Positions 1 to 39,423 of a stretch of DNA of 39,423 bases are shown piece after piece (the first letter of the stretch is position 1; every line of letters begins with the position of its first letter). The position numbers and the translations under genes were made by a program. The notes below the pieces were generated by a model. The model saw only the letters and a list, made by a program, of their open reading frames with translations, ran no database searches and had not been told where the DNA came from. The DNA comes from a virus, in the IMG/VR virus record IMGVR_UViG_3300030380_001480, positions 1-39,423 of that record, one strand, 5' to 3'.

Positions 1-42
1 ACCGCTATAGCTGACTTTTGTTGTGGTGCTACTAACTGTCAT
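1..42 (-). CDS. Partial copy of collar-type tail-fibre gene (first 14 codons)
   Basis: This is the 5' end of the fibre gene found complete at 32318-33586, with the same start codon and the same ribosome-binding site (AGGAG). It is cut by the left contig edge. It shows that cassette A is also preceded, on the circular map, by the same fibre gene as cassette B. It is an edge of the assembly path and probably not a second functional gene. Confidence 0.8.
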   Translation of the reverse strand, partial: MTVSSTTTKVSYSG

Positions 43-61
43 ATCTACTCCTACTTAAATC

Positions 62-89
62 CTTATACCTTATTTTTATGTGTCAGCAA
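62..89 (-). promoter_or_regulatory. Candidate sigma70-like promoter for tail-fibre gene (copy next to cassette A)
   Basis: On the minus strand TTGCTG (84-89) is followed after 16 bases by TATAAG (62-67), in the short gap between the gp16-like stop and the fibre start. The same element is in the second copy at 33606-33633. The match is moderate and no transcript data exist. Confidence 0.35.
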
Positions 90-93
90 AGTG

Positions 94-3000
94 TTACTCT
101 ACCCTTTGTGATTCTGGCGCAATATCTACAAGTTTGTTTAATCCGTTTCTAATTCCAATCGCGTTATTAAAAAACAATAACGAGTTTGTTGCTCTTTGAT
201 GCGACTTTGACCACTGTAAATCTGGGTTAAGCAAGGAACGAGAACCACCCCTAATAACTTTGTCCATTTTGTTTGCTAGGTCTACTGTCGGTATACCGCT
301 TATTAAATTACTTGCTAAACCTGTGCTTCTCCCATAAGCAAATACTGGTTCGTTAGTGTAAAATAAAGCACCTGTATCTATAACCGCAGGAACTAAAGAT
401 GCGTAACTACTTCTTTGAAACGCTGCTTTTCCTATCTCAACAGGGTTGAGTCTTTCATTTAAAAACTCATCTCTATCATCTCTACCTAAAGAGTTTATAT
501 AAGTCTGAGCAGTGTAAGAAGCTCCTGCAAATAAAGTAGTTGCAGCAAAAGCACCCACCGCTTGCAAATCTCTTGCAGTCATGGCGTGTAGGGTTTGTTT
601 TGCATAAGAAACCAACATGAATGTCCTAAACTGCACAATTAACTTCCCCATAGTTCCAGTCATATATTTGTTTAAATTACCTAAATCATTTTGTTGTATG
701 CTTCTTCTTGTCATTCTAACAACAGCAACGGTAAACGCATCTCTGGTTTCAGCACCTTTTGCATCAAATGTGCCATCAGGATTTTTATCCCACTCTTCCA
801 TGTTAGTTTGTCTAAGTTTTTGATTTCTGAAGAAAGGTGATTTTACAGTAACAGCGTGTTTGCGTATTTTGTCATAAACCCTTTCAGCCATATCTTCGTC
901 TAATCCAAGACCAGCCAATCGTTTAGCTGAAATTTTTGTCGATTTAAATGCAGCATCGGTTATGTTTTGCATAGCAGTTTTTGCCGCTACTCTTTCTAAC
1001 ATAAGTGTTATTGGAGCCATACCAGATATATCTGCTGTAACTCTTTTTAAAGGTTGCATAAAAGCAATAGAACCTTCCACTGCCTTATCAAAGAAAGTAG
1101 AACCTTGAGCAACATAATTTTCTACAGGGTCAAATCTGTTGAAGGCTTGATTGATAGCTCTTTCATTTCCAACTCCAAGAAAGTTTACAATATCTTTTGC
1201 AACTTGGTCTTCTAACTCACCATTTTTAGCTCTTTTTATAACAGAACGAAACTCAGGAATTGCTTGCATTAAACCCCTAACGCCACCTATCGAAATAATA
1301 TTTCCAAGTTCTGCAACTTGCGGAAATCCAACCTGATTCATTAATCTGATAAAGTTATAGTCTGCTACAAGTCTAGCTACTCGTGCTGTTTTACTACCTG
1401 CTTTAGCATTAAATGGAGCAGATGATGGGTTTCTTCCTAAAAGCAAATCAAAAAGTATCTCGGCATTTTGTATGTGTGCAGCTGCTTCTTTTTCTAAACC
1501 CTTTTCCTTCCCCTCTGCCTTTATTCCAGATATAACTTTCCTAAAGTCATCTTCAGATTTTATACCTACCTCTGCTAAAGCAATGCGTCCTGTAAGTTGC
1601 TGGGCATAAGTGTCGTACACTCGCTCCGCATCTCTGTCCATTAAGTCCTTAACACGAAGTATGTTTCCATCAGGTAGCGCAAGTTCTGCGTCTACATCAA
1701 TTTTAAGTCTTCTCTTTGCTCTGGCTGGTTCACCTAAAGGTTTACGTCCAAATAAATTAATTAATCTTTGCGCTTGGTCTTCTGTTAATATTTCTTCTTC
1801 AACTAAGATGTCTTTTAAAATATCTTTTTCATCGGTTGTAAATATTCGAGCAAGTCCAGCATCTGTTCCAAACTCTGATTTTTTTATTTTTATTACCATA
1901 CCTTCAGCAATGTTTTGAGCAAGTTCATCATCAAGCTCTGTATCTCCATTTAGTAAAGATTGCTTTAATAATTTAACAACATTATCTTGCCCATAAGTAT
2001 CTGAAAACTCTATGAATTTGTAAGGTTGCCAAAGGTGAGTAAAGTATCTTAAGTTTTCAGGTATTGACTCAAACCCTTTTAGTTGTGCTGCCTTTGCTCT
2101 TCTGAGTAACTCTCTAAAAGATAAAGCAATAGCTTTAGCTGCTTTTTGTACAGCAACAGAGGCCTCAGCCCTTGGATTTTCTATTTGGTCAGAAACCTCT
2201 TCGCCAAACTTTGAACGGTAACTTGTAAAATTTCTTTCAACAATATTTACCCCATCTTCTTTTGCTCGTTGCTTAACTGCTGGATTATAAACTTCGGCTA
2301 CTTTTCCTCTCTCAGTATTATATAATATTGTTTTTTTGATATCAGCAGTAGGAGCCATTGTTGCATTGTTTCTGTTAAAGCCAACACCATCTTCTCCAGC
2401 CCTGCCAAAAAAATCTCTGACAGTATTAAGTAAGCTACCCTTGCCTCTGCCTACGTGGTCTATCCTTGCTTTTGGCCATTCAGAGAATGGCGCATCCCCT
2501 AAGTCTCTGAAATCAGTAATTAAATCATCTGCTTTATTAGGTATAACAATATCATCTGCCCATCGATTTGCTGATGTAGATAGCGATGTAGATGATAACA
2601 AGTTTTGAACTTGTGAGTCATCGCCAAACTGCCTTCTCATTTGCTCTGCATAATCTATTGCTTGTGCGTTTTCTGTTGCTCTCTTCAGTCCAACAATAGC
2701 CTGTTCTAGCTCTGGGTCAGCGGTTCTTGCTAAAGCTCCAAAAGCACCACCAAGAACTAATCCAGCAGTTGCTCCATAAAGGATATCATATGGGTCTTTC
2801 ACAGGGTCTTGACTAACAAGATAACTTTCAATAGCAGCATTACTTGCTGCGCCACCTAACGCACCTCTAAAAATGTTGCCTAACCTTGTTGCTTTTGAAC
2901 CCCATATAGCTGGGCCTAATGCACCACCTGTTACAACACTTGCGCCAATAGCCAGTGGGTCTATAATAGCAGCACCAAATCTTAAACCAACACCACCCCA

Positions 3001-3369
3001 ACCGTAAGATTGAAGTGTTTTTTCATTATCTAAACTTTCTAAAGCTCTTGTTCTTAACGCCTTTGCGTGGTTAAGGTTTCGAGCTTCATCTAAATAATTC
3101 CATGTTTCTACAGGCAAATCTTCTGTAAGCTCATTGAAGGCATCATCATCAAGCCAATTAGATGTATCTACTTCATAATCTTTTTCATCTAATCCATTTA
3201 AAAACCAAGATAAACTATTTTCTTTTTCAAATGCAGCTTGAGCAGCGTCAAACAAACCTACTTTATTTTGTTCAAGACTAATTCTTTCTTGTCTTTCTGC
3301 AAACTTTCTTTCGTCAGCAGTTATCTTTCTAAAAGAACGCCTTATAGGGGTGTCTAAGATATCATTCAT
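94..3369 (-). CDS. gp16-like large internal virion (ejection) protein, cassette A
   Basis: A 1091-residue protein in the position of T7 gp16, the last and largest of four internal virion genes, just before the tail fibre on the circular map. Family members are ejected into the host and help carry DNA across the envelope. The sequence is largely helical. Glycine/alanine-rich hydrophobic stretches lie near residues 125-160 and 163-215, with more hydrophobic segments near 940-960, consistent with membrane insertion. I see no lytic transglycosylase (SLT) motif, which T7 gp16 carries at its N-terminus. Its ATG overlaps the gp15-like stop (ATGA at 3366-3369). It shows no visible similarity to the 1226-aa protein at 33638-37318, which fills the same slot in cassette B. 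Confidence 0.75.
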   Translation of the reverse strand: MNDILDTPIRRSFRKITADERKFAERQERISLEQNKVGLFDAAQAAFEKENSLSWFLNGLDEKDYEVDTSNWLDDDAFNELTEDLPVETWNYLDEARNLNHAKALRTRALESLDNEKTLQSYGWGGVGLRFGAAIIDPLAIGASVVTGGALGPAIWGSKATRLGNIFRGALGGAASNAAIESYLVSQDPVKDPYDILYGATAGLVLGGAFGALARTADPELEQAIVGLKRATENAQAIDYAEQMRRQFGDDSQVQNLLSSTSLSTSANRWADDIVIPNKADDLITDFRDLGDAPFSEWPKARIDHVGRGKGSLLNTVRDFFGRAGEDGVGFNRNNATMAPTADIKKTILYNTERGKVAEVYNPAVKQRAKEDGVNIVERNFTSYRSKFGEEVSDQIENPRAEASVAVQKAAKAIALSFRELLRRAKAAQLKGFESIPENLRYFTHLWQPYKFIEFSDTYGQDNVVKLLKQSLLNGDTELDDELAQNIAEGMVIKIKKSEFGTDAGLARIFTTDEKDILKDILVEEEILTEDQAQRLINLFGRKPLGEPARAKRRLKIDVDAELALPDGNILRVKDLMDRDAERVYDTYAQQLTGRIALAEVGIKSEDDFRKVISGIKAEGKEKGLEKEAAAHIQNAEILFDLLLGRNPSSAPFNAKAGSKTARVARLVADYNFIRLMNQVGFPQVAELGNIISIGGVRGLMQAIPEFRSVIKRAKNGELEDQVAKDIVNFLGVGNERAINQAFNRFDPVENYVAQGSTFFDKAVEGSIAFMQPLKRVTADISGMAPITLMLERVAAKTAMQNITDAAFKSTKISAKRLAGLGLDEDMAERVYDKIRKHAVTVKSPFFRNQKLRQTNMEEWDKNPDGTFDAKGAETRDAFTVAVVRMTRRSIQQNDLGNLNKYMTGTMGKLIVQFRTFMLVSYAKQTLHAMTARDLQAVGAFAATTLFAGASYTAQTYINSLGRDDRDEFLNERLNPVEIGKAAFQRSSYASLVPAVIDTGALFYTNEPVFAYGRSTGLASNLISGIPTVDLANKMDKVIRGGSRSLLNPDLQWSKSHQRATNSLLFFNNAIGIRNGLNKLVDIAPESQRVE

Positions 3370-6341
3370 CTACTTGATTCTCTAAACTTCTGAGCATTTA
3401 TTTCTGCTTGCGTTACAAATTGTTTTATTCTTTGTAAATCAGACTTAGTAGCTTCTACTATTGCTGTTGGAGAATAGTTTTCTCTTATGTATTTTATAAC
3501 AAAGTTATCTAAATTAAAGCCGTCAGTAATAAAATCTATCGCTGCATTAGAAGCTTTTTCAGTTACCTCGTCTATTGGTGTAGTGCCTTCAATATCTGCT
3601 AAAAGTTTTCTATAAAGTTTGTTCTTTTCAAATAGGTTCTTTGTTTGAGCGAACTCATCTGTACCAAGCTCGTAACTGGCATTAAGAGCTATCTTTCTCT
3701 CTACTTCTTGTTTCTTCTTTTTATTTGCCTCAACAACTTGAGACATTCCAATTTCTTGTAGTTCTTGCGGAGTAATTGTTAAAAGTCTTGTAAGACCAGT
3801 ATCATTACCTTGCTCATCTAAAAAAACTCCATCAAGCGGTGTGCCATATGGGTCTGTAATAATGTAATTACCTGCAAATTCATTCTTAACAACTCTTATG
3901 TCACTGGCTTTATATTCCATTGTTGGGTCTAGTATTACTTTCATTGCGGTTTTGTTTCGTGAATCTTCTACTAAAGAACTTTTTACTTCATCTATAGCAC
4001 TTAGGAACACCTGACCTTGTGTATTTAAATCGTCTTTACGTTGATAGTGACCTTCTACAAAAACAAAATCTCTAGCGATATCTTCTCTAGCCCATTCTAA
4101 AGCCTGTTTTACATCGCCTGTACCTACTTCAAGACGGTCTTTCGCCCTTGTTTCTAATAGGTCTTCCATTGCTCTTATGTTTAAAGGCTTGTCCTTGCCA
4201 AAAAAACTTTTATCCATTTCAGCTACAAGTTTTTTAGACTCAGCCTTTAGTAATCCACTCTTAATATTAACTGATACTGGGTCAGCTAATGCTTTCCTTG
4301 TGTCCATAACAGCTTGTTCTAAAGGGTCAAAATCAACTCTAGTATTTAATTCATCAAAAAAAGCTCTTTGCTTTGGGTCTGTTGCGTGGTTTTCAAGAAC
4401 AGTAGAATAATTATCTAAGAAGTTATAAAGATTTAAAGCTTTTTGTATCAAACTAAACTCTTCTGCGTCTGGCGTAAAAGAAGCATCAATGCCAAATTTA
4501 TAACCATTGTTTAATGTAGATACCCAAGCATCGTGTGTAACATTATTCCTAAAAGTAACATTAACAACTTGTCTGGTCTTATCTTCTTCAGACAAACTTT
4601 TGTCAGCTAATATAGAAGATATTACAACTTTTGCGTTTTCTTGTAGCCTGTCTTTACTAATATCGCCTAATGTAACTAGCTCTTCGCCAGTCCCATTTTC
4701 TATAGAGTCTTGTATTGTTTCGTTTTCAAATTGTGTTCTTCTTATTTTTTGTTGTTCTGCTTTAATTTTAAATATATTATCCAATGCTCTACTTGCAGTC
4801 TGACTAACAGTTTTATTTGCGCTTAATTCAAATGATTGTCTTCCATTTAAAGAAGTTGTAAGAGATGATTGTAAAATATTTAACTCTTCGAGTATCACTT
4901 TCTGTTCTTGTTCATCAGCTATTGCTAAGTTTCTAATTTTAGAATTAACCGAATTAAATATAGCACTAACAGCAAGCTCATCTCCTTCTTCTTGCTCCAT
5001 TCCTTCTGGTAAATTAAGCATTGCTTCTTCAAGTATGTCGAATTGCGTTGCTGAAATAATTGTATCTGAAAAATCTTGCCTTTTCTTTTCTGATACTTCT
5101 TCTTGGCTAAAGGAACTTGCAGCTATAACAGATAAGTCACCTTGTTGACTTTGCTTTAAATAATTAGAGTTAATTGAAATTGTAGAGCCATCTTTTTTTG
5201 TATAGGTAAAAGGCATACCATCTCTGATAGCATTAGATGCTTCGTTAAAATCTTTTTCAGTTGCTTCATCGGCTACCATATCTTGTAAAGAACCTACGAT
5301 AATATCTCTTTGTTGCACTTGTTTGTTTGTCTTTAACTTTATGATAGTTTCACTTAATGCTGTTAAATTCTTTTGGTCTAATCCTGCAAAAGATATTTCA
5401 TATTTATTTCCATAACCATCTTGGTAAGTAAAATCTGTTTCACCTTTAATAAGTCCTGTTGATATTTGGTCAACAGAAATAATATCTATCTCATCAAATA
5501 CTGCGCCAACATTAGCTAAAGAATTATTATAAAATATTGTTTTAGATTGTTCTTCAGCTACATCAATAGCATCAAGCAATTCTTGTTCTTCTTTAAAAGG
5601 AAGTTGTCTAGCTTTTGTTTGCTCTCTTTGAACATCAAAATTCATTATTGCAGAAGATAACGGCATAGAACTATCCTCAACAGACTCATATGTTTGTTTT
5701 GTATTAGCTAATATAAGTCTTTTGTCTAAGGTAGAAATATATTCTTCTCTAGTCTGTCCTACAAATCTATTCGCCCCAGACTCTTCCATTGAGTTGAATA
5801 TTAAATTAGCATCTGAAACACCTGCAGTGTAGTCTATTGTTCCTCGGCTGATGTTATCAGCTATAGAGTCTAATCCCTTTATAGAAGATTCAGCTTGTTT
5901 CTGTTGTTTTCTAGTAACAGTGTTCTGCTTTAATGGAATGGTTAATGAAGAAAATCTTGATGCCGTTTTATTTTTAATACCAGATTTAAGTCTTGAGTTT
6001 ATTCTTGGTGCATCTTCTATAGATTTAAAAACATCAGTTAATATTTCATTAGCTCTTGTTTCTACTTGTGTTACATCATCTAGCTCTTCAGCATCTAAAG
6101 AACTTAGCTTCTCATTTATACGAGACATTAATTGTGTATCTAATGTATCTGCATTTATCTTTTGTTGTGCTAGTTCAAAGTCAGCAGCTACTTTTCCTGC
6201 TTTCGATAGTGTTTGCTGAAACCCTGCAAAGGCTCTTCCTGGTGCGGTAAAAGCTGCTGTACTTGCTCTTGGTGATAATTGACCAGCTGCTAATCCTTGT
6301 GTTGGCCCTGCTCCTTGATTGTATAATGGTATCTTAGGCAA
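3366..6341 (-). CDS. gp15-like internal virion protein, cassette A
   Basis: A 991-residue, strongly helical, charged protein between the gp14-like and gp16-like genes, the position of T7 gp15 (periplasmic part of the ejection tube). The first 40 or so residues (IPLYNQGAG, GQLSPRAS, FTAPGRAFA) are nearly the same as in the 671-aa protein of cassette B; the rest differs. The start codon appears to be TTG (6339-6341), aligned with the ATG of the cassette B gene; an AGGAG lies 9 bases upstream inside the gp14-like gene, whose last 8 bases overlap this gene. Role inferred from position, size and composition. Confidence 0.7.
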   Translation of the reverse strand: MPKIPLYNQGAGPTQGLAAGQLSPRASTAAFTAPGRAFAGFQQTLSKAGKVAADFELAQQKINADTLDTQLMSRINEKLSSLDAEELDDVTQVETRANEILTDVFKSIEDAPRINSRLKSGIKNKTASRFSSLTIPLKQNTVTRKQQKQAESSIKGLDSIADNISRGTIDYTAGVSDANLIFNSMEESGANRFVGQTREEYISTLDKRLILANTKQTYESVEDSSMPLSSAIMNFDVQREQTKARQLPFKEEQELLDAIDVAEEQSKTIFYNNSLANVGAVFDEIDIISVDQISTGLIKGETDFTYQDGYGNKYEISFAGLDQKNLTALSETIIKLKTNKQVQQRDIIVGSLQDMVADEATEKDFNEASNAIRDGMPFTYTKKDGSTISINSNYLKQSQQGDLSVIAASSFSQEEVSEKKRQDFSDTIISATQFDILEEAMLNLPEGMEQEEGDELAVSAIFNSVNSKIRNLAIADEQEQKVILEELNILQSSLTTSLNGRQSFELSANKTVSQTASRALDNIFKIKAEQQKIRRTQFENETIQDSIENGTGEELVTLGDISKDRLQENAKVVISSILADKSLSEEDKTRQVVNVTFRNNVTHDAWVSTLNNGYKFGIDASFTPDAEEFSLIQKALNLYNFLDNYSTVLENHATDPKQRAFFDELNTRVDFDPLEQAVMDTRKALADPVSVNIKSGLLKAESKKLVAEMDKSFFGKDKPLNIRAMEDLLETRAKDRLEVGTGDVKQALEWAREDIARDFVFVEGHYQRKDDLNTQGQVFLSAIDEVKSSLVEDSRNKTAMKVILDPTMEYKASDIRVVKNEFAGNYIITDPYGTPLDGVFLDEQGNDTGLTRLLTITPQELQEIGMSQVVEANKKKKQEVERKIALNASYELGTDEFAQTKNLFEKNKLYRKLLADIEGTTPIDEVTEKASNAAIDFITDGFNLDNFVIKYIRENYSPTAIVEATKSDLQRIKQFVTQAEINAQKFRESSR

Positions 6342-6810
6342 TTAAAGTTGCTCCTGTTGATGCGGCATCTGTAAACCCACCGAGAAGTGATTGTTGTGCC
6401 TGTGTTCTAAAAGCCTGTGCTTGCGCTCTTCCTTCAAGCCTTGATAAAGTTGCTTCTGATTCCTTCTGCATTTGTTGTATGCTCGACGCATATTGTATTC
6501 TAGCTGCATCTTTCTCTGTATTGAAATAAGCGTCTGCTAGAGCCTGTAATGGACTGCCAGACATTCTTATACCAGAAGTTGCTGTAGCTACTCTCTGGGT
6601 GCTTATAAGCCTGTCAGACTGCCTTCTAAGCGCAGACTCTTCTTCTCTCTTCTGTCTTTGTAAAAGAATTGCTTCATTCTCAGCAACCTGTGCATTATAT
6701 TCTGCTACTTGTTCTGCAGCACGAGCAGCAGCTTGGTTTCCCTTTGAACCCATGATACCGCCAAGAACCTGACCACCTACGGCTAATGCTGTTAATCCAC
6801 CATCAGGCAT
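6334..6810 (-). CDS. gp14-like internal virion protein
   Basis: A 158-residue protein with a glycine/alanine-rich hydrophobic N-terminus (about residues 5-22), a long alanine/glutamine/arginine-rich helical middle and a small-residue C-terminus. This is the usual profile of T7 gp14-type proteins, which insert in the host outer membrane during DNA ejection. It follows the GNAT-like gene directly (stop and start share base 6810) and precedes the gp15-like gene. A second, partial copy at the right contig edge ends one codon earlier (ASLI instead of ATLIA), because the sequence next to cassette B differs there. Confidence 0.75.
   Translation of the reverse strand: MPDGGLTALAVGGQVLGGIMGSKGNQAAARAAEQVAEYNAQVAENEAILLQRQKREEESALRRQSDRLISTQRVATATSGIRMSGSPLQALADAYFNTEKDAARIQYASSIQQMQKESEATLSRLEGRAQAQAFRTQAQQSLLGGFTDAASTGATLIA
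6348..6424. repeat. Core edge repeat, identical to 39347-39423
   Basis: 77 bases inside the 3' part of the gp14-like gene equal the last 77 bases of the contig. The first difference is G6347 against C39346, 6 bases from the gp15-like TTG start. It marks where cassette A and cassette B rejoin the shared core and implies a 32,999-bp circle for the B form. The length 77 equals a common assembler k-mer size, which would fit a graph branch point, but the assembler is unknown. Confidence 0.92.
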
Positions 6811-7232
6811 TACTTTATCCTCGCCATGCGGTAATAATCACCGCCATCTACACCATATTGTCTCATCAAACCCTCATTCTCAAACCCAAGCCATCGTGCA
6901 AATCGTATTGCTGTTGGGTCATCTGCTGAAACACTTGCCTGTATTCTATCAATATTGTTTTCTGTTTCTATTACATCAAACATATAATAGGTATGCTTTA
7001 CCACAGATTTGTATTTTACCTTACCTAGCTTAGATATAAAGAACCAACCCTCTGCAACCTTACCCCACATAAAATGAATACCGCCCATACCTAATATAAC
7101 ATCATCATACATTAACGTATAACCATGTATTCGCTCTGGCGCAATGAAAGCATCTTTATGTTGCTTTTCAATAACAAACTCTAAGTCTATGTTATCTATA
7201 TCTTTTTTATCAAATGTTCTTAGTTTAAGCAT
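6810..7232 (-). CDS. gp13-like internal virion protein with GNAT-type fold
   Basis: 140 residues. The C-terminal half carries an acetyltransferase-like pattern: a run ending in IQASVSADDPTAIRFARWLGF (split here as IQASVSADDPTA and IRFARWLGF, about residues 97-117), then EGLMRQYG. This resembles GNAT motif B with the bulge-and-helix that binds the cofactor. Podovirus genes in this place, between tail tubular B and gp14, are often GNAT-like internal virion protein A homologues. Whether it binds acetyl-CoA or acts only as a structural or assembly factor cannot be told. Start overlaps the tail tubular B stop by 8 bases, suggesting translational coupling. Confidence 0.7.
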   Translation of the reverse strand: MLKLRTFDKKDIDNIDLEFVIEKQHKDAFIAPERIHGYTLMYDDVILGMGGIHFMWGKVAEGWFFISKLGKVKYKSVVKHTYYMFDVIETENNIDRIQASVSADDPTAIRFARWLGFENEGLMRQYGVDGGDYYRMARIK

Positions 7233-10200: not shown

Positions 10201-10362
10201 AAAACTTCCTGTTCTTCTGGTAATGCCGCCTTGAGGAAAGACCACCATGTTCTGCAAGGTTTGCACCCCTGCATTATATTTTTGTAAATCAACTCTGCCT
10301 TCTAATCTGGGCGTTAACTCACCTGACTGGAAGTTGGTAACAATGGTTGATACTCGTGCCAT
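7225..10362 (-). CDS. Tail tubular protein B (gp12-like nozzle) with inserted beta domains
   Basis: 1045 residues. The N-terminus (MARVSTIVTNFQSGELTPRL) and the segments GGITRRTGS and AFYEERLFFAGT are typical of T7 gp12-like tail nozzle proteins. It forms the distal tail tube below tail tubular A. Three related insert repeats stand out near residues 117-165, 674-722 and 733-783, each with the pattern HGxxxGDxVxxxxVxGMTELNNxxFTV...TFEL, like E1 FCCH-type beta modules in other phage tails. Residues 286-310 (AWSTSDTYSQNDLVRHNGNVYKK) resemble a CBM5/12 sugar-binding module. Both could touch surface glycans. Longer than T7 gp12 (about 790 aa) because of these insertions. One base separates it from tail tubular A. 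Confidence 0.88.
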   Translation of the reverse strand: MARVSTIVTNFQSGELTPRLEGRVDLQKYNAGVQTLQNMVVFPQGGITRRTGSFYVHSSKDGGEVRLVNFEYGADTASEEPVSYVLEFGLNYIRFYNEEEILTEATKSITGITTGTTAEVTSSSHGYNDGDRVFLKGIVGMTELNNREFTVANKTDNTFELSGINSSAFTAYSSGGTSGKIVEVPTTYTVAQVKELTFAQSADVMFIAHRSHAPAQLTRTTATSFTLADVDFVDGPYEDENIGTTTITSDANTGTVTLTASAGLFDSSDVGSLFRFRDIVEVQHDAWSTSDTYSQNDLVRHNGNVYKKTDAGSNEQTGAQAPVHISGSEVYGNHTWQFQHSGTGFVKITAVASTTSATAVVQNNSVNGNINTLVLPKNATDGTTRWSRGAFSSRNGFPRAVAFYEERLFFAGTTAQPQSIFGSVTDDFTNHSPGTNDDDAINVTIASDQVNVIKHMIPGRFLQILTTSAEFTLSGGTQGAAVTPTSVNVLRETTFGTSNVRPLRAGASTILVQKSGEKVKEVTFDLNTDGLVGRDLTILGEHLAKGGLVDMVWQQEPELILWFVRSDGVLIGLSYDPANNTVGWHQHPFGNSGFVESVTSIPSGTEDQVYLSVKRTINSSTVRHIVYLKSFNFSQKVRDAFFVDSGVTIENTAKTITGASLSTDQVSSVTIDHQTVTITSSSHGFSNGDDVVINDVVGMTELNADSFTVFNSQTNTFELANPATKSIKSITKANPANINIDNHGFATNDQIAIFDIVGMTTVNNTGVIVTKVDDNNFTIGVDLSSASGFPTAKVNNGSGISSGATAIDIDNVSGTISTGMVVTGTNIASGTTVVALAGQAKITLSTGTTGAISDNADLVFLPNSGVVRKATNGTPFTTYISGGEARKKVSAVTGVNHLEGETIAVLVDGASHADKTVTNGSITLDRTGGVIHVGYNYDSLVKTLRMEGGAEDGISQGKIKRIHGVTARFIDTVGAETGPNVDNLDRMPFRDSSMAMDGPIPLFNGDKEIFFPSGYDNDAQVVIRQNQPLPMTILAIMRRSNTFDA

Positions 10363-31000: not shown

Positions 31001-32313
31001 GAAGATATAGTAGCTGGTAGTCGTGCGTCTAAAACTGTGCCTGATAGTTGTGATGCATCAATTGTCTTGTTTGTCAAAGTATCTGTTGAACTAGCTGTAA
31101 TACCGCCAATGTCTGACAATACTTCAGCAGCAGAGCGTCCTTCTATATCTGTACCATTTACACGCAAGAAATCATCATCTGCCACACCGCTAGTGAATTT
31201 AGGTACGTTTGTGTTGGATATGCCAGTATCTAACGTAGCAGCCGTTCCAAGACCAAGTGATGTTCTAACCGTAGCACCAGTTTCAAGCACAAAGTTAGAC
31301 CCATCACCTACTATAAATCCACTATCTGTAACTGCTAATCCAGCCACATCTTGTAGTTGTGCGTCCAGTCTTGCGTTTGCTACTGTACCTGATAGCTGAG
31401 AAGCATCAATTGTTTTATTGGTTAAGGTTGTTGTGCTATCGGCCGTAATAACCCCTAAGTCACTTACTACCTCTGATGCACTTCTACCTTCAATTACACT
31501 ACCATCTACTTTGAGAAAGTCATTGTCAGCAACACCTGATGTAAACTTTGGTATGTTATTGTTTCCAATACCAACATTCAGTGTTGCTGCCGTGCCAAGA
31601 CCTGAGAAGTTACTCGCATCCAAGTAATAACTGCCCTGTTGACCATCAAGTAAATCTGCATCTAATCCTGATGATGCACCATCTACTGTTTTGATAGCAC
31701 TTAATATTTCAGATGCTGTTTGGTCTGTCGTAGCACTTGCTTCAATGCCATCGAGTTTTGCCTTGTCACTGCTAGACATTAATCCATTTACGGATGAAGT
31801 AGCAACATCTGTAAGTGTACTATCTGCTTCTGGTACACCACTGCTAGAATTAAATTTTAACACACCACCCTTGAGGTCAATGTTATGTGGCAATGTGCCA
31901 GATGTTGTATCTGATTCTGGTCTTAGTAAGGCCCTATCTAATCGTCTGCTTATCTGCTGTATTTGCAATGCCATTCTATCAAGAGCATTTTCATGTGTTT
32001 CTGCTGGGAATGGGTCATTTACTCTGTAATTAGTAGGCTGTGTAAAACCCATATTACGCATTAAGAACACAGTTTCACTTGCAGTAGGGGCAGTAACAAA
32101 AGTAACTGTACCACCATTAACATTACCAGTGCCAGTTACTGCATAGTTTGTACTTCCTGTTCCTATAGACCTAACAGACTCTGCACCTGTTGCTGTTGTT
32201 ACAACAATAACCTTTATGTCTGTTGTTTCTAATATCTCAAATGTAAAACTAAAAGCTGTGGTACTGCCATCGCCTGTATATGTATTTGTTGTTGTGGTAG
32301 TTGTTACTGTCAT
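28060..32313 (-). CDS. Large repetitive tail fibre
   Basis: 1417 residues. Residues 1-130 are a T7 gp17-type attachment domain (YTGDGSTTAFSFTFEILE), shared with the 422-aa fibre. The shaft is built from repeats: VADxDFLxVxGxxIEGRSAxEV units at 258-311 and 373-427; FEGAT...TITLPDATGT at 518-549, 678-709, 1126-1157, 1276-1307; ELYHDNSKKLETTS with ADGxDVGDxExIRxGASQDL at 821-872, 911-962 and part at 1001; GDLTLTSTDAGATENPTLDL at 1021 and 1169. The last 100 residues form a distinct tip (TLTIPPNSSVAYPVGTKLDF). Likely binds the host receptor. Repeats allow variation by internal recombination. Confidence 0.88.
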   Translation of the reverse strand: MTVTTTTTTNTYTGDGSTTAFSFTFEILETTDIKVIVVTTATGAESVRSIGTGSTNYAVTGTGNVNGGTVTFVTAPTASETVFLMRNMGFTQPTNYRVNDPFPAETHENALDRMALQIQQISRRLDRALLRPESDTTSGTLPHNIDLKGGVLKFNSSSGVPEADSTLTDVATSSVNGLMSSSDKAKLDGIEASATTDQTASEILSAIKTVDGASSGLDADLLDGQQGSYYLDASNFSGLGTAATLNVGIGNNNIPKFTSGVADNDFLKVDGSVIEGRSASEVVSDLGVITADSTTTLTNKTIDASQLSGTVANARLDAQLQDVAGLAVTDSGFIVGDGSNFVLETGATVRTSLGLGTAATLDTGISNTNVPKFTSGVADDDFLRVNGTDIEGRSAAEVLSDIGGITASSTDTLTNKTIDASQLSGTVLDARLPATISSDITGNAATATLASTTTVSDSTANTNFPVVFHDESNALLDDTGALRYNPSTGELLVPKLTVAGTTTTVDTVTMNAANAIIFEGATADAHETTLTITDPTADRTITLPNATGTILLADGDGSSLTNVNATTLDSVDSTSFLRSDSADTKTSGDLTFSDDVKAVFGTDGDAELYFDNTNSDLILNMSTDSDFMVMHGTEKQIVANNDSTVQLYHNNLINLETSSTGTIFYHGIYLVSGKVIQFEGATSNTNETTLTVTDPTADRTITLPDATGTVLLTDGSGASLTNVNATTIDSLDSTQFLRSDAADTKTSGDLTFSDNVALKIGTGGDLSMSHTGSNTFIDNANGDLYIRQGANDKDVIIQSDDGSGGTATYFLADGSTGAAELYHYGTKKLETTSSGATVTGVLTADGVDVGDDERIRLGASQDLQIYHDGSNSYISETGTGHLVINSTGSSLFLRTNTTENSIVGIANGAVELYHDNSKKLETTSTGAEITGVLTADGIDVGDNEPIRVGASQDLTISHDGSNSRIKDVGTGSLLIGASFVGIQKADGSETAAKFFNDGAVELYHDNSKKIETTSDGASITGDLTLTSTDAGATENPTLDLYRNSSSPADNDILGHIHFSGENDAGEKVVYTEIESRLIDASDGTEDGRLVINTMTGGSLVTHYSTGFGFNQFHRDVLLASDRNLQFEGATNDGVRTTLTVADPSSNRTITLPDATGTVLLDTGDQSITGDLTLTSTDAGATENPTLDLYRNSTSPAVGDVLGHINFSGENDADEKIVYAKINADIADETDGTEDGRLDVKVMSAGSESTRMTFQGNGHTLFTNRDVRLNTGIDLIFEGATNDDNKTTLTVTDPTADRTITLPDATGTVALQEQAYQAINAQTGTTYTTVLADGGKLVTLSNGSAITLTIPPNSSVAYPVGTKLDFIQIGAGQVTVAGGSGVTVNSTPTLKFRAQHSGASCIKIATDTWQLVGDLAAS

Positions 32314-32317: not shown

Positions 32318-33586
32318 TTATATCTTTATAATATAGTTGAGAATAATTGTTGGTTGTACGTTGTTGTGTGCTGAACCAGAACCTGTAGAGTTTGTTGAAC
32401 CCGAATTTACAGTCATACTGCTTACCGCACCTTGGCTACCATTACCATAGGAAGCACTAGAAGAAAAACTGACAGACCTAACTACCGAACTATGGCTGTG
32501 CGCTGGTAATTGTGCAGTGGTTAATGTATGTGTTTCAGAACCACCTGTATCACCTAATGTATCGCCATTTAAACCGCCTGTCTGGTCAGTCAAACGATTG
32601 GCAGATGAACCAGACATGTCATCTTTACCAGCAACTACACGACCTTGTAAGTCTGGTAGATTAAATGTAGAAGAGCCATCCCCAACACCGTAGGTAGTGC
32701 CTATAATACCAAATAAAGTTGCGTAAGTGCTTCGACTTACAGCTTGACCACCACACAATAAAAACCCTGTGGGGGCAGATGACCCAGCAAAAGGAATAAC
32801 CATACCAGCTACAAAAGGAAAAATAGTCGAATAACTAAAAGAACCATCGCCATCTGAAACAACTGATTGACCATCTGTGCCATTGCCAGATATATTAAGT
32901 TCACTTGCTGTTACTGCATTAGCATCTATCTGTGATGAGCCTACTGTACTTAGAGTTGCCAAACTACCAAGACCAATAGTTGTTCTTACCGCAGATGCGC
33001 TTGTATCATCTACAATGGTAGCAGCAAACGTAGATATTGGTGTTACATCTGCTGTTCCAGCCACCGCAATAACATCACCGCTTCCATCAAAACCCAGATA
33101 CTTACTGGCCCTCTCTGTTGAGGTAGGTATGGTTATTGAACCTGTATCAGTTTCTGCAAACTTAAATGTTCTATCTAACTCTTCTTGTTGCTGTTGATTT
33201 ACAAAGGTAAGTTTATCTAGTGCATCTTCATGTGCAGCAGCTGGGAAGCTATCATTAGGTGTATAGTCTGTATTTTGTGTAAGTGTCATTACACGTTTTA
33301 GCAAAAGAGTCTCACCGCTTTGTGGTCTTCTGTCTGTTGTATCGTAATTGCTATCGTCAGAATTACCAGTATCAAACTTAAAGGTAACAGTGCCACCATC
33401 TTGCTCACCAGCATTGCTTACAAGATAATCTGTGTTGATTGTTTTAGTAACTTCTGCACCAGTGCTATCTGTTCTTACAATAACCTTTAATTCTGTATCT
33501 AAGAATATCTTAAAACTATAAGCAAAAGCAGAAGTAGTGCCATCACCGCTATAGCTGACTTTTGTTGTGGTGCTACTAACTGTCAT
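32318..33586 (-). CDS. Tail fibre with phage tail-collar tip
   Basis: 422 residues. The first 140 match the T7 gp17-type N-terminal domain (YSGDGTTSAFAYSFKIFLD). Residues about 270-330 hold a tail-collar domain (GSSAPTGFLLCGGQAVSR, TTYGVGDGSSTFNLPDLQGR), and HTLTTAQLPAHSHS follows, as in collar/short-fibre tips. Ends with NVQPTIILNYIIKI. It has the same attachment domain as the 1417-aa fibre four bases downstream, so the two may share or compete for one tail position. It is the gene at which cassettes A and B join. Confidence 0.88.
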   Translation of the reverse strand: MTVSSTTTKVSYSGDGTTSAFAYSFKIFLDTELKVIVRTDSTGAEVTKTINTDYLVSNAGEQDGGTVTFKFDTGNSDDSNYDTTDRRPQSGETLLLKRVMTLTQNTDYTPNDSFPAAAHEDALDKLTFVNQQQQEELDRTFKFAETDTGSITIPTSTERASKYLGFDGSGDVIAVAGTADVTPISTFAATIVDDTSASAVRTTIGLGSLATLSTVGSSQIDANAVTASELNISGNGTDGQSVVSDGDGSFSYSTIFPFVAGMVIPFAGSSAPTGFLLCGGQAVSRSTYATLFGIIGTTYGVGDGSSTFNLPDLQGRVVAGKDDMSGSSANRLTDQTGGLNGDTLGDTGGSETHTLTTAQLPAHSHSSVVRSVSFSSSASYGNGSQGAVSSMTVNSGSTNSTGSGSAHNNVQPTIILNYIIKI

Positions 33587-33637
33587 ATCTACTCCTACTT
33601 AAATCCTTATACCTTATTTTTATGTGTCAGCAAAGTG
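33545..33637. repeat. Core edge repeat, identical to 1-93
   Basis: Covers the start of the collar fibre gene and its leader. Beyond 33637 the sequence turns into the 3' end of the gp16-like gene of cassette B instead of A. The shared bases end one base into the two stop codons (TAG in B, TAA in A). See the left-edge repeat for the circle-length argument. Confidence 0.95.
33606..33633 (-). promoter_or_regulatory. Candidate sigma70-like promoter for tail-fibre gene
   Basis: Minus-strand TTGCTG (33628-33633), 16 bases, TATAAG (33606-33611), ending 20 bases before the fibre ATG at 33586. AGGAG stands before the ATG. It would let fibre genes be expressed independently of whichever ejection cassette lies upstream. 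Confidence 0.35.
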
Positions 33638-36600
33638 CTACTCAATTTTTGACGCTTTAATAGTTGACAAACCTTCTTTAGCTAACAATATCATAGACCT
33701 ATATAATGTATCTATCAGTTGTCTTTTTTCTGGAGCAGTAATATCTTCTGCTTTATAAATTTGCCTAACCATTTTAGAATGACCAGATAAAGTTTTTTGT
33801 AATTCTATTAAGGGCAATAATGTTAAATCTGTTTTTTCTAAAACAGACATTGCTTCTAAGCCTCTGTTATCATTTCTAAGTTTTCTTACAGTATCCATTC
33901 TTCCTTTAATCTTATCAAATTCTTTGTAAAAATCTGTAATAAATTGTGAACCAGCGGAAGGTTGTCTAACTACAAATGCTTTAATAACAGGTAAATCTGC
34001 AAGCGTATCACTTGGTTGCGTTGGGGGAGATACAATACCTTGTTTTTCAAGAATAGAATCCATAGCCTGTAATCCGTATGACCCTAATGTGCTTGTCCAA
34101 GACCTTATAACGTGTTCAATTTTAGCTGGGCTACCCATAGCTCCATCTGTTGTTTCTGATATGAACGCCCCTAAAAATTTTGCTGTTTCACTTGTGTAAT
34201 CATTATATTGATACTCAGGTAAAACATCTTCTAAATATCTCGGAACAATTGGTCTATCTGTAAAGAAACTTCTATTAGCAAATAACTCTATTCCTGGCTT
34301 AATAAAGTCAGGTATTGGGACTATTCCTCCACCACTATCTTTTGCAAAGTTTCCTAAAAATTCTGTTATTGCTTTAGGGTCTTTATCTTTTGCAAAATCT
34401 AACATTTTTTCTGCGCCTGTTCCAAACAAAAGACCTAACTCAAAAGGCTTTGGTATTCTGTAAGCAGTATAATCCCCATCTTCTAATGTTCCATCTCCTG
34501 TTATTACAATCCAAAATAAATCTTTTTGCCATTCTGGAAGTGCTTGATACCTTGGGTCATCATGGTTTTTCATCCATAAGAATACGCTAGGAAGAGTTAT
34601 GTAAGCACCTATAAGACCAGCAGTTTGCAAAGGTCTTGTTTTAAAGGCATCATATATTTTTGCGTAACCTTGTAATCTTGCATTAAAAAAAGCAGAAATT
34701 CTATTTATTGCTTGTATCTGCGAACCCATTTTAGCAAAATCTATAGTAATATCCCTTGCATTAAAACCAGATGCTTGAATGATATCTCTATCAGAAAAAC
34801 CTTCTTTTTCTTTCATTCGTTTAAGTTTTTTATAAGTAAGAGCATACTCCCCAACACGAGGCGCAGTCTCAAATATTTCAGACATAACCCTTAACATTTC
34901 TAATGGGTTAGTAACAGCGTTTCTCATTCTACCGCCAGTAAAATATTTTTTTACATCTTTTGCAAAATAAGCTCTGTCCATACTTACAAACATAGATTGC
35001 ATTGCGCCTGATGTTGAAAAGTCTTTCATTAACTTTGTTCTGCCAATCATATGACCAACACCAATCATACTACTATAAAATGGAAGAAAATTGTTTTGGC
35101 TAAATATAGCTGATTGTAAATTATCTCTAGTAAAATTTCTTGTCATAAATTCTGGAGCAAGCGTAGCACCAGCTCTTAAAAATTTTGATGGTATAGATGC
35201 AAATTTTACAAAAGCATTAGCTTCTGCTTTGTTCATATCTTTTATTGCCCCGGCAATATCTGAACCAACTTCCCAAATTTCTTTTTTACCATTTCTAAAA
35301 ACAGCTATTTCAGTATTACTTACAACCTGACCATCTCTTCTAAATATAGTTAATCCATCAAGAGCAGATTCATTTCTAAATTTTGGCTCTGCTATTGTTG
35401 CTAGTTCCTGTTCTGTTAGTTTAATAGCTTTTGTTTTAGCATCTAACTTACTTATCTCTGGAAATGCCTCTGGCTTTTTTTCAACCATTTCTATAAATTT
35501 ATTAAAAGCATGATTTCTTTCAGCTAATAAAACATTAGAAACAGTATTAAGATATATAGATTCTATGGGGTCTTGTATCTTTGCCTTGCTACCTTTTATT
35601 TTTTTTAAAGGGTTTTGCATAACTGATGTAAACTCAGACCCACTCCCTGTCGCTGTTTCTTCTAATACTCTACTAAAAGGCACATAATTTTTATTCATTT
35701 CTTTAATTAAAGCTAAGTTTTCAACAGATATTACACCAGCATCTTGCATATATTTGAGTATTCTATCTTGATAAGCATCTAATTCTTTAGCAGTTTTTTC
35801 ATATTTTTTTGATTGTGATGATATTACAGTTTGTGAATCTTTTAAATTTATACCTGTTTCAATTCCTCTAGCGTTAAGTTCCACATTTCTTCTTGCGACC
35901 ATATATGAACCTAATGCTTCATATTCTGCTTTTGATTGAAAGGTTTTAAGTATATTTTCTAAAGATTTTCCATTACCTTTGAGTGTTTTAAAATTTAAAG
36001 TTTCGTATGTTAGCTGATGAACTCCCCTACTCACTATTCCAGGTTGCAATCTCATTTGTTTATAAGGGCTTACTAGGTCTATTTTACCACCAGCTTTTTC
36101 ATATTTTTTTACTGCTGCATATATTGGATGTAGTCTATCAAGAAACTGAGTTGCTATTTTTGCCTTGGTTGTTTTTAAATCTGGTAATACTGGTTTTTCT
36201 TTTTTAAATTGTATTCTTGAGTGGACAGATTGAGCAGCTTCTGTAGGTAACTTAATATCTAGCGTTAAATCTTCTATACGAACACCTGATTCAAGTTTCA
36301 TACCAGATTTTTCTGCCTCTGCTAATTTATTAGCTCTTTCTTCTGCTCTTCTCATACTAGGTGTTTTAATGGTTTGAGGAAGTGGTGCGCCTGTCCAATC
36401 TACTTGACCAATAATTTCATGTGGTAAAGGCTCATCTCTAAATTTTGTTATATTTTCGCTTAGTAAATCTTCTCTTTTTTTGGGGTTTCTTGCTATTTCA
36501 ATAGCTAGTTCTGGAAAACTTTTATTGGTTTGTTTTACTCTTTCAGAAATCATATTAGTTGCTTTTGCGCCAAGACCGAAAGAACCTATTACTAAAGCAT

Positions 36601-37318
36601 TGTTTACAAGTTCTTCTTTAGTAGGCATACGTCCATCTAACAGTGGGCCAAGTGAAGAAAAAACCCCCCACTGCGCTGCTAAATTACTAAAGCCTGTAAG
36701 ACCTAATTTTTGAGGTAGAGCAACAGCAGTGCCTAATGTAATACCAGCCTTTGCCCCTTCTTTAAATCCTTCGTCTATAAAAGTTTGCCACCATTCACTA
36801 AAGCTATCAACATGGCCTTCTTCTAATGCTTTAACATAAGTTGATTTAATAGATTCGTTTACAAAAGCAGCACTTCCAGCAGCTATTGAAGGACTTTTTG
36901 TCGCTAAAAATGTTGGTATGGCAGAGCCTATATAAACAGGCAAATCTGCTCCTATCATTGTCATACTTTCAGCAAATCTTTCTAAGTACCCAGTATCTTC
37001 TGGTTCTGGTGAAAGAGAGCGTTGAAAATCTAAACCAATTTTACCGTCAGTATGATACTGCAAGGCCATATTAAAAGTAGAATTACCAAGACCTCTTTTA
37101 AAATATTCGGTAAACTGAGCATCTTCACCAACAGCACTTTCTTTTACTGAGTTCCAAACACTTTGCCAGTAATTTGTTATAGGTTCAGTGACTTCTTCAT
37201 TAGTATTTGAAGGTAACTTACTGTACCCATAAGAACCTAAAATATTGTCATCATTAATATCTTCCGCAGAATCAAACCCATAAAAAGATAAAACATTGTT
37301 ATCGTCTATAATAGTCAA
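33638..37318 (-). CDS. gp16-like large internal virion protein, cassette B, with LPD38-like region
   Basis: 1226 residues in the slot of T7 gp16 but with no visible similarity to the 1091-aa protein of cassette A. Hydrophobic small-residue stretches lie near 118-155 and 188-250. Residues about 700-990 (FASIPSKFLRAGATLAPEFM, RISAFFNARLQGYAKIYDAF, then LPEWQKDLFWIV) resemble the LPD38-type domain of large polyvalent proteins that phages deliver into hosts; named from memory. No SLT motif seen. Start is TTG (37316-37318) with AGGGG six bases upstream; no ATG lies nearby in frame. The gene ends exactly where the shared core begins. Confidence 0.68.
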   Translation of the reverse strand: MTIIDDNNVLSFYGFDSAEDINDDNILGSYGYSKLPSNTNEEVTEPITNYWQSVWNSVKESAVGEDAQFTEYFKRGLGNSTFNMALQYHTDGKIGLDFQRSLSPEPEDTGYLERFAESMTMIGADLPVYIGSAIPTFLATKSPSIAAGSAAFVNESIKSTYVKALEEGHVDSFSEWWQTFIDEGFKEGAKAGITLGTAVALPQKLGLTGFSNLAAQWGVFSSLGPLLDGRMPTKEELVNNALVIGSFGLGAKATNMISERVKQTNKSFPELAIEIARNPKKREDLLSENITKFRDEPLPHEIIGQVDWTGAPLPQTIKTPSMRRAEERANKLAEAEKSGMKLESGVRIEDLTLDIKLPTEAAQSVHSRIQFKKEKPVLPDLKTTKAKIATQFLDRLHPIYAAVKKYEKAGGKIDLVSPYKQMRLQPGIVSRGVHQLTYETLNFKTLKGNGKSLENILKTFQSKAEYEALGSYMVARRNVELNARGIETGINLKDSQTVISSQSKKYEKTAKELDAYQDRILKYMQDAGVISVENLALIKEMNKNYVPFSRVLEETATGSGSEFTSVMQNPLKKIKGSKAKIQDPIESIYLNTVSNVLLAERNHAFNKFIEMVEKKPEAFPEISKLDAKTKAIKLTEQELATIAEPKFRNESALDGLTIFRRDGQVVSNTEIAVFRNGKKEIWEVGSDIAGAIKDMNKAEANAFVKFASIPSKFLRAGATLAPEFMTRNFTRDNLQSAIFSQNNFLPFYSSMIGVGHMIGRTKLMKDFSTSGAMQSMFVSMDRAYFAKDVKKYFTGGRMRNAVTNPLEMLRVMSEIFETAPRVGEYALTYKKLKRMKEKEGFSDRDIIQASGFNARDITIDFAKMGSQIQAINRISAFFNARLQGYAKIYDAFKTRPLQTAGLIGAYITLPSVFLWMKNHDDPRYQALPEWQKDLFWIVITGDGTLEDGDYTAYRIPKPFELGLLFGTGAEKMLDFAKDKDPKAITEFLGNFAKDSGGGIVPIPDFIKPGIELFANRSFFTDRPIVPRYLEDVLPEYQYNDYTSETAKFLGAFISETTDGAMGSPAKIEHVIRSWTSTLGSYGLQAMDSILEKQGIVSPPTQPSDTLADLPVIKAFVVRQPSAGSQFITDFYKEFDKIKGRMDTVRKLRNDNRGLEAMSVLEKTDLTLLPLIELQKTLSGHSKMVRQIYKAEDITAPEKRQLIDTLYRSMILLAKEGLSTIKASKIE

Positions 37319-37320
37319 CT

Positions 37321-39336
37321 TTATCCCCTTGGAACAGCCATTGATTGACTTCCTAAAGTTGTTTCGTCTGGTTCTTCTGTAATTTTTTGCCGTAACTTAT
37401 TTATACCGTTTTGGTATATTTTTGCATTAGGACTAGCTTTCCATGATTGATATTCGGGATGATTTATTATATCTTGTTTAGATGGTTCAGATATACCTCT
37501 GGATGATAAATCTTTTATTATAGTTTCTATTGGAGGGGCATAAGGTTGCAATTGTATAGGTACAGAAGGTTTTTCTTTTTTTGCTTCCTCGTTAATTGAC
37601 TGTTCTGTTTGGTCTTGATTTTTAAATGTTATGACATCCATTTGTTCATTTAAAATATCTTGAATTGTTGCTCTATATGAACTAATAAAATCACTTTTAA
37701 AAATATAATCATCACTTGATGGGCTTAATAATTGGCGAGAAGTTCTCCCATCTTCTATGCCTTTTTTATATAATTCTTCAGATGCCATTGCAAAATTAAA
37801 CTCTCTTACTTTTCCCATCGGGCTTTCACCAGCTAGTTTTGGGCTAATAACAGGTAAAAAAGACTCTATTAATTTGTCAAGTTGCCCTAATCCAGAAAGA
37901 TATTCTTTGTTATTTAACAATTGAAAATTGGATTCTAAATCTACCACTCTTTGTGTAGATAAGTGCACCCCTTCTCTTTCTAATAAAGAATAGCCTTGTT
38001 CTCTTGGCTCTAAACCAAGAGCTTCATCATAAGGAGTTATAAATCTTTGTGTTGGGCTGCTTAATTTATTTTTTCTTACCAAAGTTCTTATAAATCTGTC
38101 TGCATTTACACTTTCTTCTGTAACAGGAGGAGTTACTAATTCATTTGTTAATGATTGTAAAAATTGGTCTTTTACTTCTTCTCCGTTTATGCCTGTTAAT
38201 TTAGAATTCCTAACATCAGAAATTGTTAAATTGCCATCTCTTTTTAATTTTGTAAGTCTAATAACCTCTTGTTGATTTTCTTTTATCTGTTTGTTTGTTT
38301 CTTTTTTTTCTTGAATTTCTATTTCTTTTCTTCCAAGGTTTAAATTTTTTCTGGCTAAATCTTTTACTTGTTGTTTTTCAAATTCCCCCAAGCTGTTAAA
38401 TAAATTTTGTTTAGCTTGGTCTGCAAAAATTCCATTTGAAACATCGTTAAACTGGCTTTCTAAAACAGCTACACCTTTAAATTCATTTGTTGCTACATCT
38501 GAAATATCAACCGTATTAGCAAGAAAAGTAATATTATCATTTGTTATTTCTTGAGATTTTTGAGAAATCTTCTGTATTAAAATATCTCGTATTGCTGCAT
38601 CTTTTATTTTTTCATTTACAGTAGAAGTAATTTCTGATAAATCATCTAATGAATTTGCACTATCTATGTTTTTTGATAAAGAAAGCCTTTTGTTGCTTTC
38701 TGCCTTTTCATTAATTTGACTTATTATTTCTCCTTCTGTTAAAGGTGTCTGAATACCACTTTGTCTTGCAACTCTGTTATCGGATAACAAATTTTCAGTG
38801 GTTGCAAGCCACTCGAATGAGCCTTCGTTCATTCCATTTAATGACTCCAAGTTTTTAAAATAAGAACTATTATAATTATCTAATGCAATTCTATTGCCAT
38901 TGTTAAAAGCGTTTTGTTGAAAATTTAATTTAGATTGTAAGAGTAGCTTATTAATATTATTAACAAGCATTGCTTCTCTTCTTTTTCCATAATTATTTAA
39001 TTTAACATTCTCAATAATTCCATCAGATGCTTTTTTAAATGAAGCGTTTGCTTGAGCTATTGTTGTATCTGTTCGAGATGCTTCTAACTGTGCTATACTT
39101 AATTTTTCTGTTGCTTCTGACATCACTTTTGAGTTGATAGAAACATCTTCTCTTTCTTGTTCAGCTAATGCAAAATTAGTTGCGACTTTACTAGCGTCAC
39201 CAAATGTTTTCTGATAATTAGCAAATGCCCTACCAGGTGCAGTAAAAGCATTTATACTTGCTCTTGGTGATAACTGACCAGATGCTAATCCTTGTGTTAG
39301 CCCTGCTCCTTGATTGTATAATGGTATTCTAGGCAT
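37321..39336 (-). CDS. gp15-like internal virion protein, cassette B
   Basis: 671 residues, helical and charged, with many Asn/Lys/Glu. The first 40 or so residues (MPRIPLYNQGAG, GQLSPRAS, FTAPGRAFA) match the 991-aa protein of cassette A closely at both protein and DNA level; downstream only weak helical resemblance remains, and it is 320 residues shorter. ATG at 39336 overlaps the gp14-like stop as TGATG. It ends with TAA two bases before the gp16-like TTG. It should form part of the periplasmic tube in DNA ejection. Confidence 0.68.
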   Translation of the reverse strand: MPRIPLYNQGAGLTQGLASGQLSPRASINAFTAPGRAFANYQKTFGDASKVATNFALAEQEREDVSINSKVMSEATEKLSIAQLEASRTDTTIAQANASFKKASDGIIENVKLNNYGKRREAMLVNNINKLLLQSKLNFQQNAFNNGNRIALDNYNSSYFKNLESLNGMNEGSFEWLATTENLLSDNRVARQSGIQTPLTEGEIISQINEKAESNKRLSLSKNIDSANSLDDLSEITSTVNEKIKDAAIRDILIQKISQKSQEITNDNITFLANTVDISDVATNEFKGVAVLESQFNDVSNGIFADQAKQNLFNSLGEFEKQQVKDLARKNLNLGRKEIEIQEKKETNKQIKENQQEVIRLTKLKRDGNLTISDVRNSKLTGINGEEVKDQFLQSLTNELVTPPVTEESVNADRFIRTLVRKNKLSSPTQRFITPYDEALGLEPREQGYSLLEREGVHLSTQRVVDLESNFQLLNNKEYLSGLGQLDKLIESFLPVISPKLAGESPMGKVREFNFAMASEELYKKGIEDGRTSRQLLSPSSDDYIFKSDFISSYRATIQDILNEQMDVITFKNQDQTEQSINEEAKKEKPSVPIQLQPYAPPIETIIKDLSSRGISEPSKQDIINHPEYQSWKASPNAKIYQNGINKLRQKITEEPDETTLGSQSMAVPRG

Positions 39337-39423
39337 CAGATTAAACTTGCTCCTGTTGATGCGGCATCTGTAAACCCACCGAGAAGTGATTGTTGTGCCT
39401 GTGTTCTAAAAGCCTGTGCTTGC
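39336..39423 (-). CDS. Partial copy of the gp14-like gene (3' end)
   Basis: The last 28 codons and stop of the gp14-like gene, cut by the right contig edge, in frame with the full gene at 6334-6810. The end differs: ASLI then TGA, instead of ATLIA then TAA. It shows that cassette B joins the same core gene as cassette A. Confidence 0.85.
   Translation of the reverse strand, partial: QAQAFRTQAQQSLLGGFTDAASTGASLI
39347..39423. repeat. Right contig-edge repeat, identical to 6348-6424
   Basis: 77 exact bases; the first mismatch is C39346 against G6347. Further similarity continues through the first 120 or so bases of both gp15-like genes at lower identity, so the swap edge on this side lies inside homologous sequence. 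Confidence 0.92.

Follow-up and report, generated by a model that had tools for sequence, protein, structure and literature searches.

Two unrelated ejection-type cassettes in one slot of an HTVC010P-like marine phage contig and their probable exchange as whole sets

Results and Discussion

Gene content of the slot

The viral record IMGVR_UViG_3300030380_001480 from IMG/VR, a complete record classed as linear, was analysed over its whole length of 39,423 base pairs (bp) and is referred to as the window. It carries two different gene cassettes, A and B, which both show the same gene order on the minus strand, namely a gp14-like gene, a gp15-like gene, a gene at the gp16 position, a leader and a tail fibre gene. 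The features of the slot and its surroundings are the following (aa, amino acids; nt, nucleotides):

1–93, no strand: joint repeat of 93 bp at the left contig end, where A adjoins the leader and the truncated start of the fibre gene; equal to 33545–33637
94–3369, minus strand: gp16-like protein of cassette A, 1091 aa; of the T7-gp16 class but lacking the N-terminal hydrolase region
3366–6341, minus strand: gp15-like protein of cassette A, 991 aa; assigned from its place in the gene order, with homology to the B gp15-like protein over the N-terminal ~205 residues (hhalign 99.9%)
6142–6341, minus strand: A copy of the conserved gp15 start (N-terminal ~65 codons); cassette similarity ends near its 3' side
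6334–6810, minus strand: gp14-like internal virion protein flanking the slot on the left; match to phrog_418 (internal virion protein, E 2.5e-12)
6348–6424, no strand: joint repeat of 77 bp, core copy; equal to 39347–39423
6425–33544, no strand: shared core with tail tube A/B, capsid, portal, terminase, early genes, lysis genes and fibres
32318–33586, minus strand: tail fibre of 422 aa flanking the slot on the right; PHROG tail matches
33545–33637, no strand: joint repeat of 93 bp, core copy adjoining B; equal to 1–93
33587–33637, minus strand: leader from gp16 stop to fibre start, right anchor (AAAATAAGGTATAAG...AGGAGTAGAT); second copy at 43–93
33638–37318, minus strand: gp16-position protein of cassette B, 1226 aa, LPD38 domain; phrog_9854 (E 1.5e-102) and Pfam PF18857 (E 7.4e-43)
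37321–39336, minus strand: gp15-like protein of cassette B, 671 aa; N-terminus in common with A gp15
39137–39336, minus strand: B copy of the conserved gp15 start (N-terminal ~65 codons); identity with the A copy is 95% up to about +80 nt and 60–65% up to +200 nt, after which the two are unrelated
39347–39423, no strand: joint repeat of 77 bp at the right contig end, truncated gp14 gene adjoining B; equal to 6348–6424

As the original prediction had claimed, both contig ends are repeated in the interior, in each case without a mismatch and with the repeats ending exactly at the limits given above, and the open reading frames (ORFs) place A (991 + 1091 aa) and B (671 + 1226 aa) into one slot between the gp14-like and the fibre gene. 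We could also confirm the proposed path A–core–B, which closes to 33,544 bp via A and to 32,999 bp via B. The left end is located within the fibre gene and the right end within the gp14 gene, and such intragenic ends together with interior repeats are as expected for a path through an assembly graph with one shared node. At the gp14/gp15 joint the similarity is longer than the exact repeat (90.6% between 6226–6424 and 39221–39423), because the first ~80 residues of the A and B gp15-like proteins are homologous (61% identity). A megablast search with bases 1–25000 revealed no near-identical phage in GenBank, and the exact junction 27-mers of A and of B did not occur in IMG/VR, which therefore holds no independent contig of the window's own population.

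The gp16-like protein of A belongs to the gp16 family, as it matches phrog_342 (internal virion protein, E 3.1e-146) over profile positions 208–1213 and as a PDB search with its family profile found ejection proteins (best E 8.7e-34), T7 gp16 (E 5.8e-12) among them. Consistent with the late start of the phrog_342 match, the PHROG and Pfam scans gave no hydrolase match in A gp15 or A gp16; the N-terminal hydrolase region also varies among accepted gp16-like proteins (PMC8954989). The A gp15-like protein alone showed no PHROG or Pfam family match. A long form of class A gp16 with ~300 extra N-terminal residues (1365–1427 aa) is present in several of the IMG/VR relatives described below (L008, L026, L073, L042 and others), with a weak tape-measure match in one case. 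For cassette B no homology to the gp16 family was found and its gp16-position protein is assigned by position only; profile comparison, also with 25 B16 sequences, revealed no similarity between this protein and A gp16. Members of its family occupy the same slot in HTVC034P, Lederberg, HTVC204P and HTVC010P. The two gp15-like proteins are alike only over the N-terminal ~205 residues, and the structure model of the B protein is all-helical with a predicted local distance difference test (pLDDT) score of 76.6. Gene order, and for A also homology, suggests an ejectosome role for both cassettes.

The closest isolates are HTVC010P-type pelagiphages (capsid 65–73% and portal 49–58% identical), with the backbone proteins of the window being 48–53% identical to those of the cultured representatives. 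The window shares with this podophage group the same structural genes in the same order, that is portal, capsid, tail tube A/B, acetyltransferase, gp14-like protein, ejection slot and fibre. Judging from these relatives, SAR11 may be the host.

One cassette per slot, exchanged as a set

To describe the slot in related phages, about 200 IMG/VR loci, some of them overlapping on the same contig, were gathered using the tail-tube protein, each of the gp16-position proteins, the DNA pattern of the conserved leader and the B16 profile as queries. All 34 complete slots hold exactly one cassette, and these cassettes belong to three unrelated classes: A (21 slots) with the T7-gp16-like protein, B (5 slots) with the LPD38 protein and C (8 slots) with three genes, the last one encoding a phrog_684 virion protein. 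Class C shows only short gp16-like stretches, and its gp15-like protein shares ~300 residues with that of A. A fourth arrangement, D, with proteins of 565, 954 and 985 aa that match none of the three class profiles, was found in the same slot of the Pelagibacter phage HTVC028P (L103). The cultured HTVC010P-type pelagiphages, having genomes of 33.6–36.4 kilobases (kb), also carry one cassette each in this slot, belonging to class B, C or D; none of the isolates examined had a cassette of class A.

In all 100 distinct cassettes with both genes callable the class of gp15, judged beyond residue 250, is the same as that of gp16 (25 A/A, 65 B/B, 10 C/C, none mixed), the large B set having been gathered by gp16, which favours no gp15 class. 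Two large gp16-class genes did not occur together in any of 85 loci. As in P22-type phages, the proteins at the gp15 and gp16 positions co-vary while the gp14-position protein stays: the gp14-like gene adjoins all three cassette classes in the relatives, and gp14 is 82–95% identical among close backbones of different class.

The class does not follow the backbone. On a tree of capsid and tail-tube proteins with 41 tips we counted 18 class changes compared to 18.8 for shuffled labels, and a label-blind thinned tree with 39 tips gave a similar result (18 compared to 18.3). Only with near-copies kept (53 tips) was the count below that of shuffled labels (18 compared to 23.3), so that class clustering exists only among near-clones. 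The backbone of L047 (A) is 95.4% identical over 8.6 kb to that of L057 (C) and 96.2% identical over 10.1 kb to that of L049 (C), and in both pairs the similarity is lost at the slot. The clade of the window itself (93–97% protein identity) holds A, B and C, and the search for either pair in related genomes, which had been suggested as a check, found these close backbones in separate contigs. The nearest relative of cassette A, L090, has a 90% identical gp16 and a backbone that is 68% alike, the nearest backbone to the window, L005 (96.5%), carries a gp16 that is only 39% alike, and the nearest relative of cassette B is located on a backbone with a tail tube that is 73% alike. A single sample (3300029309) gave contigs of all three classes, namely L008 (A), L053 (C) and L163 (B). 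Judged from these assembled relatives, cassette exchange is real in this phage group, and the initial claim that A and B are alternative ejection pairs swapped as a set, while the capsid, tail and fibre N-terminal genes stay, agrees with the 34 slots, with the lack of mixed cassettes and with the nearly identical backbones.

The exchange has sharp limits. Between the window and close backbones the nucleotide identity is mostly 70–100% up to ~200 nt into gp15 and then ~30–60% where the cassettes differ, and the step at this breakpoint is reversed in L090, in which A is located on a distant backbone. On the fibre side the similarity resumes directly after the gp16 stop codon, where the leader AAAATA(A/G)GGTATAA...GGAG...ATG is kept in all classes and partly in distant backbones, too. 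We also considered the leader motif as a late promoter and rejected it, since at most 2 mismatches allowed 4 matches in the window compared to 3.0 expected by chance and both exact matches are the joint copies. As the breaks lie at the gp16 stop codon and after the first ~65 codons of gp15, the presumed gp14-docking end would stay while the tunnel and the inner-membrane parts are swapped. The cassettes are thus exchanged as linked sets between two defined breakpoints, independently of the backbone and of the neighbouring fibre.

Two probable variants in one contig

A detectable gp15 start was found in 17 records, with two copies in the window, two in L076 and one in each of the other 15. L076 (IMGVR_UViG_3300025889_000115, 64,029 bp) also has two capsid genes, 78% and 72% identical to that of the window, and apparently consists of two different phages of this group joined in assembly. 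From the single gp15 start in the 15 records, the joined L076 and the lack of loci with two gp16-class genes, the best account of the window is that two strain variants were assembled together and that it is not one genome; an assembly through two strains had been among the alternatives of the original prediction and is right for the contig. Taken together, it is highly probable that the contig follows a path in the assembly graph through two variants (each ~33–33.5 kb) of a short-tailed HTVC010P-like marine phage that co-occur and whose slot is often exchanged in whole sets.

Several points weigh against this conclusion. The two-variant account is drawn from assembled sequence. Common assemblers use 77 as a k value and the right overlap has exactly this length, but the left one has 93 bp, so that the k signature is consistent with assembly and no proof of it. 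The sampled loci include fragments of uncultured phages, and the set linkage could partly come from missing homology between the classes at the gp15/gp16 border and not from functional fit. Finally, the gp16-position protein of B showed no detectable similarity to any solved ejection protein in a PDB profile search and gave a poor structure model (pLDDT 43), and the best Foldseek match of the B gp15-like protein is an ejectosome chain, but a weak one (E 0.034).

Proposed mechanism and alternative explanations

The cassettes most likely move by homologous recombination between co-infecting phages, for which gp14 and the first ~65 codons of gp15 would serve as the left anchor and the ~51-nt leader and the fibre start as the right anchor. 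The need for a fit between gp16 and the C-terminal part of gp15 would keep the set together, whereas the constant gp15 N-terminus would fit the constant gp14. In T7, the outer-membrane pore consists of gp14 and the periplasmic tunnel of gp15, which has its N-terminal domain at gp14 and binds gp16-N through the C-terminal part, and gp16 enters the inner membrane (PMC8954989). A constant gp15 N-terminus beside a constant gp14, together with the strict linkage of the gp15 remainder to gp16, fits this arrangement. For P22 it was described that Sf6 gp16 or gp20 alone results in non-functional phage while the pair works with P22 gp7 kept, and that P22 with the HK620 set partially escapes from the inner-membrane exclusion protein SieA (PMC10883804). 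We infer recombination as the route and the envelope as the site of selection, which would most likely come from inner-membrane or periplasmic barriers to DNA entry; an escape from inner-membrane exclusion would be a plausible benefit, and the defence evasion considered in the original prediction is possible in this form, with P22 as an experimental precedent. A possible but clearly more tentative extension is that abundant marine phages share a pool of at least four unrelated injection machines on one docking module, with a reshuffling rapid enough to make the type random with respect to lineage, owing to type-specific blocks in the periplasm or inner membrane, set up by hosts or resident phages.

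Podophage ejection proteins must cross the envelope of their own host, and the cassettes could therefore be host-range determinants with each class suiting a different host lineage, as in the host-range switch proposed originally. However, isolates with B (HTVC010P, HTVC034P, Lederberg), C (HTVC035P, Skadi, HTVC024P, Greip) and D (HTVC028P) were all grown on HTCC1062, and isolates with B (HTVC204P) and C (HTVC203P) were grown on FZCC0015. A host-range switch is not supported by this distribution and we regard it as unlikely.

Selection on the adjoining tail fibre could also drive the exchange as a by-product, with the cassette hitchhiking, as the fibre gene is adjacent and variable and as metaviromic islands of marine phages centre on host-recognition genes (PMC3909814). 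This is quite unlikely, since the fibre is exchanged independently and its type does not follow the cassette class. The fibres of L007 (B) and L008 (A) are 92% identical and those of L011 (C) and L119 (A) 98%, whereas L020 and L021, both with A, have fibres of 58% identity. Moreover, the resumption of similarity at the gp16 stop codon means that the recombination point separates cassette and fibre.

That the whole contrast is an assembly artefact, with one cassette from an unrelated phage being wrongly joined to the core, might be suggested by contig ends lying inside genes in sequence common to the interior, and L076 (64 kb), with its two different capsid genes and two gp15 starts, indicates that joined genomes occur in these assemblies. 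Yet the same gp14 and fibre-leader sequence flanks both cassettes, the 3' junctions agree with relatives, as the leaders of L012 and L021 (A), L009 and L011 (C) and L007 (B) closely resemble the one adjoining A and B, and close backbones with each of the three classes exist in separate contigs, making an artefact very unlikely. Although the assembled contig does contain both cassettes, one genome (39.4 kb or a heterodimer) that carries both and uses or switches between them, as also considered in the original prediction, is extremely improbable, as no relative of one genome length has two, isolates of the size given above have a single one, the contig ends are truncated genes and no integrase or invertase was ever the best match in the PHROG and Pfam scans of the larger ORFs, which also speaks against site-specific phase variation.

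As the exchange of sets shows, the injection apparatus can be a fast-changing allele in marine phages, besides the receptor-binding fibre, and the interface of gp14 and the gp15 N-terminus would let unrelated injection machines plug into one virion. Resistance or exclusion at the periplasm or inner membrane of SAR11-type hosts should then be specific for the cassette class. When such phages are assembled from short reads, alleles can end up joined in a single contig, a point to be kept in mind in the analysis of such assemblies.

Other features of the shared core

Besides portal, capsid, tail tube A and B and terminase, the core encodes lysozyme and holin. The fibre genes at 28060–32313 and 32318–33586 encode proteins with homologous N-terminal ~160 residues (41% identity), the large one having internal repeats. 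Tail tube B (7225–10362) has 1045 aa compared to ~800 aa in many relatives, and besides E1_FCCH repeats it shows a carbohydrate-binding match, though a weak one. On otherwise close backbones there are two versions (~43% versus 93–98% identical) of the small virion protein encoded between the genes for capsid and tail tube A (11026–11505), so this gene is exchanged, too. An ArdC-type anti-restriction protein with a zincin-like metallopeptidase domain is encoded at 17782–18663, and two strong adjacent hairpins without an Rfam match are located between early genes at 19976–20105. The Rfam scan revealed no RNA family in the window, no transfer RNAs were found in it, and early proteins of 296 aa and 230 aa, tried as recombination enzymes, showed no family match.

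Comparison with known systems

In HTVC010P-like pelagiphages low-recruiting metaviromic islands include internal virion proteins, and a 5.3-kb island of HTVC010P, bounded by a fibre gene, contains an internal virion protein (PMC3909814, PMC6487183, PMC10504331); the reason for their listing among these islands was described as obscure (PMC3909814). A long-read study located the diversity in a pelagiphage island with an internal virion protein at the nucleotide level and not in gene content (PMC6487183), whereas the slot content described here changes by class. For Skadi a low similarity in the virion-core region has been noted (PMC10504331), but its hypervariable region lies in other genes than the slot. 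In the literature searched we found no description of an exchange of unrelated cassettes as sets, though an earlier mention of the slot is possible.

With the T7 ejectosome the window shares the gene order gp14–gp15–gp16–fibre, and class A gp16 is a member of the T7 gp16 family. In contrast to T7, A gp16 of the window has no N-terminal hydrolase region, class B has no detectable gp16 homologue and class C consists of three genes with gp16-like sequence limited to short stretches. A parallel is found in P22-like phages (gp7, gp20, gp16), where the periplasmic and inner-membrane genes are among the most variable and mosaic virion genes, whereas the gp14-like part gp7 is conserved, and where gp20 has to be matched with gp16 (PMC10883804). 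Their variants, however, are divergent versions of the same proteins (~21–75% identical), while the proteins in the slot described here show no homology that could be detected outside the gp15 N-terminus, are encoded by differing numbers of genes and occur on backbones that are 95% identical at the nucleotide level.

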